Assembly: GCA_902526075.1 (NCBI GenBank)
Contig: CABZJM010000008.1
Location: forward strand, 1 to 59,870
Origin: an uncultured Bacteroidota bacterium
Lineage (GTDB): Bacteria > Bacteroidota > Bacteroidia > Flavobacteriales > Flavobacteriaceae
Direction: 5' to 3'
DNA length: 59,870 bases
Program-made: the position numbers and the translations under genes
Shown here: positions 36,988 through 49,405 of the stretch, in pieces
How positions within the stretch are numbered: the stretch's first letter is position 1
How the letters are laid out: each line of letters begins with the position of its first letter
Notes under the pieces: model-generated
Told to the model about the DNA's origin: nothing
What the model saw: only the letters and a program-made list of their open reading frames with translations
The model's database searches: none

Positions 36988-38616
36988 ATGAGTGATTTTT
37001 TAGTTTCTGCACGAAAATATAGACCTGTAAATTTTGAAGATGTAGTAGGACAGCAAGCAATTACTTCAACACTTAAAAGTGCAATTTCAAATAATAAATT
37101 GGCACAAGCATTATTATTTACAGGACCCAGGGGAGTTGGGAAAACCAGTTGTGCTAGAATCGTTGCAAGAGAAATTAATAATTTTAAAATTAATGATGAC
37201 AACTCTTACAATATATTTGAATTAGATGCAGCATCTAACAATGGAGTTGAAGGAATAAGAAATTTAATAGATCAAACAAGAATTCCCCCACAAATCGGAA
37301 AATACAAAGTTTACATAATCGATGAAGTTCATATGTTGTCATCAGGAGCATTTAATGCATTTTTAAAAACATTAGAAGAACCACCTTCACACTGTATCTT
37401 CATTCTCGCAACAACTGAAAAACATAAAATAATTCCTACCATTCTTTCCAGATGCCAGATTTATAACTTTAAAAGAATTACAATTGACGATATAGTAAGT
37501 CATCTAAAAAAGATATGTGAAATTGAACAAATACAGTATGAAGATGAAGCGTTAAATCAGATAGCCAATAAATGTGATGGTGCAATGAGAGATGCGCTAC
37601 AGCTATTCGACAAAGTTGTAGGAATTAATAAAAATATTAGCTTACAAGTGGTTCTTGAAAATCTAAATTCAATTGGTTTTGATGCATTTTTAGAAATAGT
37701 TAATCTAATTAATAAAAAAAATATTCCGGATTTAATTAATAGAACTAATTCTATTCTAAACCAAGGAATTTCTGGAGATTTGTTTTTATCTGGTCTTTCT
37801 TCTTTTTTTAGAGATATTTTAGTTAGTAAAAATAAACTATCTCACAAACTCTTAAAACTTGATAGGACAAAAATTAGTAAATTATCCGATTTGGGTTCAG
37901 ATTTAAATTATGATTATTTGATAGAATACATTAATATCTTAAATGAAGCAGAAATAAATTTTCAAAAAAGTATAAATCAAAGACTATTGATTGAGCTAGC
38001 TGTATTAAAAATATCGTCTCTTGAATTAGACAACAAAAAAAAAAAAATTAAATATAAATTAATTCCAATTTCAACATTTCAAACTCAGGTTTTTAAGTCC
38101 CACTTTTCAAAAAAAACAGTTCAAAAGAAATCAAAACCAATAGCAGATATAAATCTCACTGATTTTGAAACATCCACTCTTTCTTTGAAAAGTATAGAAA
38201 AAGAAAAAGAAATTACCGATGTCTCATCAAATGTTGAGGAATTAGAATATAATCTGGAAAAAAATATATCTCATAAAGATATTACTGATACATGGGATGA
38301 TTATGTTAATAAACAAGAGTATAAAGGTAGATATAATATTGCATCGATACTTAGAATATCTGATCCTCAATTCAAGGATAATATCATTATTTACTCGGTT
38401 CCCAATAATACAGCTGCACTTGAGGTTGAACAAGAAAAACAAAATCTAGTTCTATTCATCAGAAGAAAGCTTAATTCAAAAATTAATATTTCACTAAAAA
38501 TTGATAAAAGCATTAATAAAAAGGTAGCTTATACCAACAAAGAGAAGTATGAATTACTTATGAAGAAAAACCCTATTATTCAAGAATTAAAGAATCAATT
38601 TAAATTATCAATCTAA
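36988..38616 (+). CDS. dnaX: DNA polymerase III subunits tau/gamma
   Basis: A 542-residue clamp-loader ATPase. SARKYRPVNFEDVVGQ at 7-22, Walker A TGPRGVGKTSC at 45-55, Walker B YIIDEVHML near 107-115, and the arginine-finger SRC motif in ILSRCQIYNF near 153-162. The cysteine zinc module of E. coli DnaX between motifs is absent, as I recall for other Flavobacteriia. Domains I-III end near residue 346 (QRLLIELAVLKISSLEL); then comes AAC followed by thirteen A (38035-38047), a Lys-rich linker, and a C-terminal tau domain to 542. Shifts in either direction at the A13 run stop within five codons, which would make a gamma-like product of about 355 residues. Confidence 0.95.
   Translation: MSDFLVSARKYRPVNFEDVVGQQAITSTLKSAISNNKLAQALLFTGPRGVGKTSCARIVAREINNFKINDDNSYNIFELDAASNNGVEGIRNLIDQTRIPPQIGKYKVYIIDEVHMLSSGAFNAFLKTLEEPPSHCIFILATTEKHKIIPTILSRCQIYNFKRITIDDIVSHLKKICEIEQIQYEDEALNQIANKCDGAMRDALQLFDKVVGINKNISLQVVLENLNSIGFDAFLEIVNLINKKNIPDLINRTNSILNQGISGDLFLSGLSSFFRDILVSKNKLSHKLLKLDRTKISKLSDLGSDLNYDYLIEYINILNEAEINFQKSINQRLLIELAVLKISSLELDNKKKKIKYKLIPISTFQTQVFKSHFSKKTVQKKSKPIADINLTDFETSTLSLKSIEKEKEITDVSSNVEELEYNLEKNISHKDITDTWDDYVNKQEYKGRYNIASILRISDPQFKDNIIIYSVPNNTAALEVEQEKQNLVLFIRRKLNSKINISLKIDKSINKKVAYTNKEKYELLMKKNPIIQELKNQFKLSI
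38035..38047 (+). other. A13 run in dnaX, candidate transcriptional-slippage site
   Basis: Thirteen consecutive A encode Lys350-353 plus the first base of ATT, directly after the end of clamp-loader domain III. One extra A gives AAT then TAA; one A fewer gives TTA-AAT-ATA-AAT-TAA. Thus both frames stop at once. Known parallels are slippage on an A9 run in Thermus thermophilus dnaX and the ribosomal frameshift of E. coli dnaX. Confidence 0.6.
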
Positions 38617-40240: not shown

Positions 40241-41169
40241 CGGTCAAAATTTTTCTTCGCCAATAAATAAATAACAGCCATTCTAATTGCTACACCATTT
40301 TCAACCTGATCTAATATTATTGAGTTATTTGAATCTGCTACTTCACTTGTAATTTCCACCCCTCTGTTGATTGGTCCAGGATGCATAATAACAATATCTT
40401 TGTTCACATTTTGCAATCTATCCATAGTTAGTCCATAATATTTTTTGTATTCTCTTATTGAAGGAAAGTAACTCTCTGACATCCTTTCATTTTGTAATCT
40501 TAGCATATTTGCAACATCGCACCATTTAAGAGCTTTATCTAAATCTGTTTCAACCTTTACTCCAAAATCCTTCAAATATTTTGGGATTAGAGTGTGAGGG
40601 CCACAAACTTTTACATTTGCTCCTTGTAGTTGAAGTGCAAAAATATTAGACAGGGCTACCCTACTATGGATTATATCCCCTACAATTAAAATATTTTTAT
40701 TGTTTAAATCTCCAATTTCTTGACGCATTGAATAGCAATCAAGTAAAGCTTGAGTGGGGTGTTCATGGGCTCCATCACCAGCATTTATTATTGTGGCATT
40801 TACTTTTTTAGATAATAAGTGCGGTGCCCCAGGATTAGAGTGCCTAATTACAATCATATCAACTTTCATTGATAATATATTATTTACTGTGTCTATTAGT
40901 GACTCTCCTTTTTTTACAGATGATTGTGTAGAAGAAAAATTTAATACATCGGCAGATAATCTCTTCTCAGCCAATTCAAATGATAATTTTGTTCTTGTTG
41001 AATTTTCAAAAAAAAGATTTGCAATAGTAATATCCCTGAGAGATGGAACCTTTTTAATTGGTCTATTGATTACCTCCTTAAAGTTATCAGCTGTCTCGAA
41101 GATTAGCTCCAAATCATTTTTATTCAAAAACTTGATTCCCAATAAATGATCTACACTTAGATTATCCAT
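40237..41169 (-). CDS. pyrB: Aspartate carbamoyltransferase catalytic subunit
   Basis: A 310-residue enzyme of pyrimidine synthesis joining carbamoyl phosphate to aspartate. LFFENSTRTKLSFELAEKRL at 52-71 holds the STRT carbamoyl-phosphate site, HEHPTQALLDCYSMR near 136-150 the catalytic His, and MHPGPINRGVEI near 263-274 the aspartate loop. No regulatory pyrI follows. It sits between pyrR (8-nt overlap) and rnz (4-nt overlap), so the three are translationally linked. Confidence 0.96.
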   Translation of the reverse strand: MDNLSVDHLLGIKFLNKNDLELIFETADNFKEVINRPIKKVPSLRDITIANLFFENSTRTKLSFELAEKRLSADVLNFSSTQSSVKKGESLIDTVNNILSMKVDMIVIRHSNPGAPHLLSKKVNATIINAGDGAHEHPTQALLDCYSMRQEIGDLNNKNILIVGDIIHSRVALSNIFALQLQGANVKVCGPHTLIPKYLKDFGVKVETDLDKALKWCDVANMLRLQNERMSESYFPSIREYKKYYGLTMDRLQNVNKDIVIMHPGPINRGVEITSEVADSNNSIILDQVENGVAIRMAVIYLLAKKNFDR

Positions 41170-41710
41170 TCTTAAAATTCTCTATGTAAACATAATTACC
41201 ATTATTTTCATCATTCCATTCTACATTAACTTTTTGATTTTCATATACATCAACTTGAATGCCTTTATAATCAGGCTGAATGGGTAATTCTCTACTAAAT
41301 CTTCTATCTACAAGAATCAACAATTCAATTGTTTTTGGGCGACCAAAACTTTCGATAGCAGTCAAAGCAGCTCTAATTGTTCTACCAGTGTATAAAACAT
41401 CATCGATGAAGACGACTTTTTTATTTTCAACTAATAGCTTAAAATCAGTCTTATTTGGTAAAAGGATATCCTTATTTCTTCTAAAATCATCCCTAAAGAA
41501 CGTAATATCCAAAAAACCATAGTCAACAGAGCTAATGTTGTATTTATCAATTAAAATACTAACTAATTTGTTACATAATGACTTTCCGCGTGGCTGTAAA
41601 CCTACCAAGATTGTTTGTTTAAAATCTTGGTGATTTTCAGTAAGCTGACATGCCAATCGATCTAGAGTTGTGTCCAGTTGATTGTTATTTAGAATAATTT
41701 TTTTTTTCAT
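41162..41710 (-). CDS. pyrR: Bifunctional pyr operon regulator/uracil phosphoribosyltransferase PyrR
   Basis: A 182-residue phosphoribosyltransferase-fold protein. The PRPP loop is VVFIDDVLYTGRTIRAAL near residues 94-111, and QLTENHQDFKQTILVGLQPRG (in pieces ENHQDF and LVGLQPRG) near 26-46 matches PyrR. In Firmicutes PyrR binds nascent pyr mRNA to promote attenuation at high UMP. Here it heads pyrR-pyrB-rnz, and a hairpin with a U-run lies 26 nt before its start. RNA binding in this clade is not established by sequence. Confidence 0.92.
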   Translation of the reverse strand: MKKKIILNNNQLDTTLDRLACQLTENHQDFKQTILVGLQPRGKSLCNKLVSILIDKYNISSVDYGFLDITFFRDDFRRNKDILLPNKTDFKLLVENKKVVFIDDVLYTGRTIRAALTAIESFGRPKTIELLILVDRRFSRELPIQPDYKGIQVDVYENQKVNVEWNDENNGNYVYIENFKNG

Positions 41711-48097: not shown

Positions 48098-49405
48098 TTA
48101 TAATTTTGAAATTCTGGTCAGTATATAAATTGATGGTATGAAGAATAGTGCGAAAAGTAAAATTGCTAATCTAATACTTCCAGTGTAAAGATCCATTGTG
48201 GCATAGATTGCGGTTCCTAAAACAATACTTAGTTTTTGAGATACATCATAAAAACTAAAATATGAGGTTGAATATTTAACGTCAATCAATTTTGAATATG
48301 TGGATCTGGACAATGACTGAATACCACCCATTCCTAAACCAATAAATCCAGCTGCAATATAAAATTCAAGTGGTGAAGTTACAAAGTAGCCAAAAAAGCA
48401 TATAGTTGCCCACAAAATATTAATACAAATAAGAGTATTTATATTACCAAAATAGACCGAAAGTTTTGCACTCAGATAGGCTCCAGCTGCTGCTAAAATC
48501 TGAATAACAATAATTGCTAAAATCAAACCTGATTGCATGGTTTCCTCATCCATCCAACTAATTTCATTTAAATCTGCACCAAAATAACTGGCTAGAAGAA
48601 TGATAGTTTGAGTAGGGATTGTGAAAATAAAAAATGAAAATAAAAATATTCTGAGTTTATTATTTACTTTTAATTGTTTTACAACAGACATTAACTGATT
48701 AAATCCACTCAAAAAAGTTTTTAGAGAGTATAAATTTTTTTTTTCTAAATTATAGTGTTTTTTGCCAGGCAAGTAATGGAATGAATATTGACTAAATAGA
48801 AACCACCATACTCCAACAAGAACAAAAGACATTTTTACGGCCTTATTTTTATCGTTAAGACCAAAGGATTCTGGAAATTGTGTTAAGAATAAACAAAAAA
48901 TTAGTAGAATAATACTTCCTAAATAACCTAGAGAATATCCTTTAGCACTTGTCATATCTTGTTGATCAGCATTTGCAATATCAGGCAAATAAGAGTTGTA
49001 AAAAACTAAACTACCCCAAAAACCAACAACTGCAAAAAAGTAATAAATAATTCCAAGATCGAAATTATCTAAATCAAAATTGTAAAGTAAAATACAAGAA
49101 AATGAACCCAGGTAACAAAATATTTTCATAAAAAGCTTTTTATATCCGGTATGATCAGCGACACCTGACAATAAAGGGGATATTATAGCTAAAATTAGAA
49201 ATGTAAAAGAGGATATATATCCAATAAAAGCATCATTTTCAATTGATTTAAACCAAAGAAAATCTACACTATCACCTCCAGTAATACTTTTGAAATATAT
49301 CGGAAATATAGCAGTGGATATTACCAAAGGATAAACAGAATTTGCCCAATCGTAAAATGCCCAAGCATTTAATAACTTTTTGTCCCCTTTATTATAAAAT
49401 TTCAT
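48098..49405 (-). CDS. UMF1/Atg22-like MFS transporter
   Basis: A 435-residue inner-membrane protein with about 12 hydrophobic helices in two halves, separated by a basic loop near 215-245. The start LLNAWAFYDWANSVYPLVIS near 10-29 is the signature of the UMF1/Atg22-like branch. ISPLLSGVADHTGYKK near 75-90 is the MFS loop 2-3 motif, and GGIQSLSRSTYSKL near 357-370 its C-terminal counterpart. Substrate unknown (amino acids for eukaryotic Atg22). It is divergent from msrB (76 bp) and upstream of lon with 101 bp between. Confidence 0.88.
   Translation of the reverse strand: MKFYNKGDKKLLNAWAFYDWANSVYPLVISTAIFPIYFKSITGGDSVDFLWFKSIENDAFIGYISSFTFLILAIISPLLSGVADHTGYKKLFMKIFCYLGSFSCILLYNFDLDNFDLGIIYYFFAVVGFWGSLVFYNSYLPDIANADQQDMTSAKGYSLGYLGSIILLIFCLFLTQFPESFGLNDKNKAVKMSFVLVGVWWFLFSQYSFHYLPGKKHYNLEKKNLYSLKTFLSGFNQLMSVVKQLKVNNKLRIFLFSFFIFTIPTQTIILLASYFGADLNEISWMDEETMQSGLILAIIVIQILAAAGAYLSAKLSVYFGNINTLICINILWATICFFGYFVTSPLEFYIAAGFIGLGMGGIQSLSRSTYSKLIDVKYSTSYFSFYDVSQKLSIVLGTAIYATMDLYTGSIRLAILLFALFFIPSIYILTRISKL

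Follow-up and report, generated by a model that had tools for sequence, protein, structure and literature searches.

The window analysed here, that is, the whole stretch of 59,870 nucleotides, carries a dnaX gene (36988..38616, +) whose single open reading frame encodes a tau subunit of 542 residues, as the preliminary description of this DNA had stated. The product matches TIGR02397 (dnaX_nterm; residues 6–342, 360 bits against a cut-off of 250), the NCBIfam gamma/tau models, the Pfam AAA, ATPase lid and domain III families and, over residues 4–268, the E. coli gamma/tau chains in the PDB (E about 1e-50). Codons 1–349 (36988..38034, +) encode domains I–III, as delimited by the extents of the PF12169 and TIGR02397 matches, and are common to tau and to the predicted gamma. 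They are followed by thirteen consecutive As (38035..38047, +; codons 350–353 and one further base), a candidate slippage site that is kept in most of the relatives surveyed. As the domain III match (PF12169; 26.5 bits against a cut-off of 24.4) covers residues 233–354, the run lies at the end of domain III, directly after the clamp-loader domains, where it had been placed; it is also the longest homopolymer of the window, in which no other exceeds ten. The tau-specific C-terminal part (38048..38613, +) is made in the genomic frame only. When one A is added to the run in silico, the product ends in KKKKN at a TAA (38049..38051, +) and is 354 residues long; when one A is removed, it ends in KKKKLNIN at a second TAA (38060..38062, +), formed by the last two bases of a TTA leucine codon together with the A that opens the following one, and is 357 residues long. 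Either one-base shift would hence yield the gamma-like product of about 355 residues, limited to domains I–III, that had been announced.

The length of the run is not significant by itself, because 38 of 100 dinucleotide shuffles of the window contain at least one A13; chance would supply 0.74 such 13-A matches over the two strands of the window, and composition was rejected as a ground for singling out this site. The AT-richness of the window, together with sense-strand runs of 9–10 As in seven other open reading frames of at least 100 residues, speaks against the reading that we prefer. Two T10 tracts of the forward strand are possible slippage sites too: the one at 48735–48744 is a sense A10 inside the reading frame 48098–49405 (−), and the one at 41698–41707 is a sense A10 near the start of the reading frame 41162–41710 (−). 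The source genome assembly (62% complete) has four sites with at least eleven As. Two of them, an A14 and one A11, fall outside the listed reading frames of at least 60 residues, the second A11 is at codon 3 of a reading frame that by eye is murB-like, and the fourth site is the A13 of dnaX. The A14, the longest A-run found in this genome (G000:C17:9086-9099, equivalent to L263:1587-1600), lies between another reading frame and one that by eye resembles a response regulator gene. The sequence of the window alone would be insufficient, and the case for A13 is a comparative one.

To this end, dnaX loci were gathered from the genus, family, order, class and phylum of the window and from 80 named genomes. 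The 239 loci gave 233 distinct ones once two contig ends and four duplicates had been dropped, and each was scored for its longest A-run in an interval reaching from 12 nt upstream to 105 nt downstream of the domain III end. Ten genomes from a set of 100 were left out: G011, G014, G015 and G019, with weak matches only and none at 1e-30; G063, G083, G094 and G097, with weak or partial matches; and G086 and G095, small genomes at 35–36% identity. The class sample comprised 20 of 37 genomes spread over genera, chosen with the open-frame lengths in view and the sequences unseen. The phylum sample comprised 20 of at least about 223 genomes, likewise spread over genera, taken among the better-scoring of the matches listed and with frame lengths seen beforehand. 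The 80 named loci were found partly through the peptide pattern DNKKKKIK, which spans the run itself.

A run of 9–13 As is present at the domain III boundary in 207 of the 233 loci, in 137 of 153 when the 80 named loci are set aside, and in 207 of 250 when 17 runless loci from the genus of G040 (see below) are added. Run lengths were 2–4 in 19 loci, 5–8 in 7 (7–8 in just 3), 9 in 29, 10 in 142, 11 in 25, 12 in 8 and 13 in 3, so that 36 loci have 11–13 As. Seventeen of the 21 genomes of the genus yielded a dnaX, all 17 with runs of 10–13 (the source locus and the 16 others); the run is then present in 63/64 loci of the family, 29/32 of the order, 18/20 of the class and 10/20 of the phylum outside the class. 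For the named genomes the figures are 37/37 in Flavobacteriia, 6/6 in Sphingobacteriia, 6/6 in Chitinophagia, 1/1 in Cytophagia, 15/23 in Bacteroidia and 5/7 among those named only to phylum. As the first phylum picks leaned to better-scoring genomes, we added 30 genomes from outside the class, covering 29 families; among the 29 scorable ones (one locus ends too early), 13 have a run of 9–10, four of these genes being split at the run, and 16 have none, which brings the count outside the class to 23 of 49. The four split loci, L332 (G104), L333 (G373), L340 (G177) and L343 (G109), are two-ORF dnaX genes in which an A9–A10 run marks the junction and tau occupies the −1 frame, the layout described by GeneTack for Chlorobi. 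Twenty more family loci formed a second set, for which the prediction was fixed before the sequences were read, although frame lengths were visible when the loci were chosen. All 20 (19 new, one a duplicate of L047) have a run of 9–13, and both non-tau frames stop within 5 codons in all 19 loci that could be judged, the duplicate included, one locus ending too early for the tau frame to be called. The check for AAG codons or loss of the run in relatives thus left the proposed device standing.

Is the run more than a lysine-rich linker in an AT-rich genome, with any slippage being noise? Such an explanation without recoding agrees with A13 being within the expectation from composition, and synonymous codon draws often give A9 in the AT-rich members; within the genus the synonymous test is weak (17/17 observed, 12.7 expected). 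Over all 233 genes, draws from each gene's own codon usage predict 103.4 loci with the run against the 207 observed, and among loci with a GC content of at least 0.45 it is kept in 42 of 56 against 9.5 expected. Not one of 1946 windows of the same size (117 nt) further upstream in these genes has a run of nine or more As, no gene exceeding A8 there, and the tau-specific part contains such a run in 9 of 152 single-ORF genes. Codon choice preserves the run in the GC-rich relatives, and with it the out-of-frame stops that follow at once.

These stops were examined in the 133 run-bearing genes with a single reading frame. The frame reached by adding one A stops at a median of 2 codons and that reached by removing one at 5, and in 120 of the 133 genes each of the two is closed within 10 codons, compared with 34% of the 15051 control positions taken from these genes. 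In the genes whose tau frame has Ile/Leu/Val-Ile-Pro a short way past the run, the first codon of this motif was scored for the form xTA, which builds a TAA in a shifted frame. It has this form in 88 of the 93 run-bearing genes with the motif (25.5 expected), in 51 of 55 when restricted to single-ORF genes (17.6 expected), and the isoleucine codon is ATA in 65 of 67 genes with an Ile motif, compared with 20% before an A upstream in the same genes; the window gene has TTA at this position. As the rows are related, the figures of the codon and stop tests are counts and not independent trials. The expectation that out-of-frame stops near the boundary would also be kept in relatives was borne out, which argues further against an absence of recoding.

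The frame of tau itself provides another line of evidence. Among the 207 run-bearing loci, 133 have a single reading frame, 66 have tau in the −1 frame, where one more A is needed, and 8 have it in the +1 frame; tau is thus out of the zero frame in 74. The second set adds two loci with tau in the +1 frame, for a total of 10. Even within the genus, L018 and L019 are split in opposite directions, one in each shifted frame, next to 15 genes with a single reading frame. In a tree built with FastTree from the N-terminal part of dnaX (250 rows, including 17 for the G040 genus), parsimony counts at least 34 changes of frame state, at least 32 of them among run-bearing rows, and 12 changes of run presence; 20 label shuffles gave 72–85 and 37–43 changes, respectively. 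Single flips in draft genomes could be homopolymer assembly errors, which are unlikely as a general explanation because the split states span many species of one genus as well as one-contig genomes (e.g. L149). For a functional tau, 74 off-frame genes out of 207 would be intolerable without recoding, and together with the GC-rich loci, the upstream windows and the shifted stops they make the linker explanation highly improbable. Flips might also reflect phase variation at the DNA level, with tau toggled between cells and no slippage on RNA: the near relatives L048 and L052 have A10 and A9 between the same flanks, and their frame is flipped. However, tau carries the polymerase contact (PMC3290774), and presumably no cell can do without it; the split state is moreover common to many species of genus g66 and to complete genomes. 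We regard phase variation as extremely improbable. Slippage by RNA polymerase is the reading that we retain, and frames that flip while the run is kept would amount to a natural test of its effectiveness. Automatic gene calling would presumably misread many of the split genes as truncated.

We propose that A13 is a programmed slippage site at which RNA polymerase slips, so that dnaX makes both gamma and tau, and on the comparative evidence we consider this probable. Placed where clamp-loader domain III ends, the run would randomise the reading frame in a programmed manner. Slippage would generate dnaX mRNAs with extra or missing As: those changed by zero or by a multiple of three would encode tau, of 542 residues or one residue more or less, and the others would meet a stop within a few codons and encode a gamma-like clamp-loader subunit of 354 or 357 residues with domains I–III only. 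The slippage, its mainly transcriptional nature, the ratio between the products and the use of gamma in clamp loaders are what we infer. Polymerase slippage fits since the run lengths have a lower edge at nine, both directions of shift occur and downstream structure is lacking. According to PMC1088944, avoidance of A/T runs becomes evident at nine in many genomes, and some AT-rich bacteria may have suppressed slippage.

The same gamma-like product would arise if ribosomes slipped instead, by sliding on iterated AAA codons or by −1 frameshifting on A_AAA_AAA. According to PMC4363877, E. coli ribosomes slide when they meet long A-runs, with translation ending at out-of-frame stops; in a cell-free system the sliding was robust at A11. 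Tau lies in the −1 frame in 66 of the 74 split genes, and two lineages of the same order use ribosomal-looking sites that have no long run. In the source genome (62% complete) a single tRNA-Lys gene was found, UUU, which is compatible with ribosomal slipping and favours it if anything; the tRNA-Lys count was rejected as a discriminator. So was the phase of the run, as all three phases occur and any run of nine holds an in-frame A_AAA_AAA. The best fold downstream of the window run is −0.4 kcal/mol (z +1.19), and the mean z over the 207 run-bearing loci is −0.28 against −0.40 in controls; with no structure signal in either, hairpin-stimulated frameshifting was rejected as a general mechanism. 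By eye, no Shine-Dalgarno (SD)-like motif is present in the 24 nt before the window run, and such motifs occur 5–24 nt upstream in just 22 of the 207 loci, a figure that rises to 103, in favour of ribosomes, once the four bases that immediately precede the run are included. Bacteroidia ribosomes fail to recognise SD sequences (PMC9976891), and prfB frameshifting is low in F. johnsoniae (PMC12421855), so that SD-aided recoding in the E. coli manner should be less available. Two further points weigh against ribosomes: tau in the +1 frame cannot come from classical −1 frameshifting, which concerns the 10 loci above, and a heptamer would suffice for a ribosome, yet runs of 7–8 are rare. Ribosomal slipping in place of polymerase slippage, the strongest of the alternatives, is thus rather unlikely, although ribosomal sliding may add to slippage by the polymerase at A13.

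The run is absent from 26 of the 233 loci, including 8 named Bacteroidia and several lineages outside the class. In G075, a 0.34-Mb genome, the runless dnaX (L174) ends at 345 residues, at the end of domain III, and no tau part was seen in the stretch just downstream; this is perhaps a natural gamma-only organism. L107, from a Bacteroidales MAG, shows an in-frame TAG immediately behind domain III, past which that frame stays open; this could be readthrough, a second reading frame or an error. Two lineages within the order have a split dnaX without a long run. In G079 (L158/L244), the only genome examined of its genus, gamma ends at A_AAA_AAG-TAG just after domain III, tau follows in the −1 frame, and a 14-bp hairpin lies 3′ of the TAG (−26.5 kcal/mol, z −4.1). 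The site is like that of E. coli dnaX with the roles reversed, and suggests that slippage has here been exchanged for ribosomal frameshifting. The other lineage is the genus of G040, where dnaX was found in 18 of 22 genomes (L245–L262; L246 is G040); the 17 further loci were sampled because G040 was an exception, and stand outside the 233. None of the 18 has the A-run. With a junction at about codon 354, gamma ends at AAA/AAG followed by TAA/TAG in all 18, at GGG GAA AAR TAA-like sites, and tau starts with an FIIPxSHF-like sequence in the −1 (or +2) frame in all 18, L255 having a long open stretch in frame 0 too. Third-position conservation is 0.88 just before the stop and 0.77 upstream. The direction of shift is fixed, unlike in the run-bearing genes, and the junction is a possible undescribed recoding site. 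The slippage device is absent from some lineages and in two has apparently been replaced by short-run or run-free recoding. These observations can be joined into a broader reading, which we put forward tentatively, as plausible but not favoured: polymerase slippage in the class of the window and much of the other Bacteroidota would leave the tau frame nearly neutral to selection, with dozens of flips while the run is kept; reliance on it would be due to ribosomes without SD-aided recoding; and at least two lineages (G079 and the genus of G040) would have swapped to run-free, probably ribosomal, devices at the same junction.

Gamma formation from dnaX by slippage in Thermus and by frameshifting in E. 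coli is established (PMC5009743), the Thermus thermophilus site being an A9 at which transcription slips (PMC1088944, PMC5009743). According to a review, most bacteria beyond the enterobacteria and Thermus are without dnaX frameshift signatures and may not make gamma (PMC3290774). If the reading proposed here is true, a means of making gamma has been retained across much of one phylum, and this would speak for gamma being important. In 2013, GeneTack predicted slippage in 17 two-ORF dnaX genes from 12 genera, nine of them with A10, including Chloroherpeton and Chlorobium (PMC3711429); its nine A10 species may well include Bacteroidetes, so that some cases from that group were likely known before. 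Beyond that study and reviews, our search of the open-access literature found no paper on the single-ORF Bacteroidota cases, their breadth or the frame flips. The preliminary reading of gamma made by slippage accordingly stands in part: the run and the stops are conserved and slippage is probable from the sequences, whereas the claim of an independent Bacteroidota case does not hold, given the spread of the run through the class and beyond it and this earlier prediction for poly-A dnaX genes.

Like the GeneTack genes, the window gene has a poly-A tract at the gamma/tau junction, and their layout is matched by its relatives L018 and L019, in which gamma is in the zero frame and tau needs a shift. 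The genes listed by GeneTack, however, are all split at the DNA level and all −1, whereas the window gene is a single reading frame with tau in the zero frame, and its relatives are split in both directions. E. coli likewise makes gamma and tau from one gene, as is predicted here, but the window gene has no A_AAA_AAG heptamer (its run is followed by TT, the heptamer being A_AAA_AAA), no 3′ stem-loop and no upstream SD-like motif. The layout resembles that of Thermus: a single reading frame for tau, an A-run of at least nine, near stops in both other frames, and gamma as the product of the out-of-phase frames. Slippage itself has been measured in Thermus and is predicted here. The Thermus run lies at seven-eighths of the gene (PMC1088944), and that of the window is an A13 at about 65% of the coding sequence, immediately behind domain III. 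The window gene is one instance of a widespread device known from other bacteria, here with a long run.
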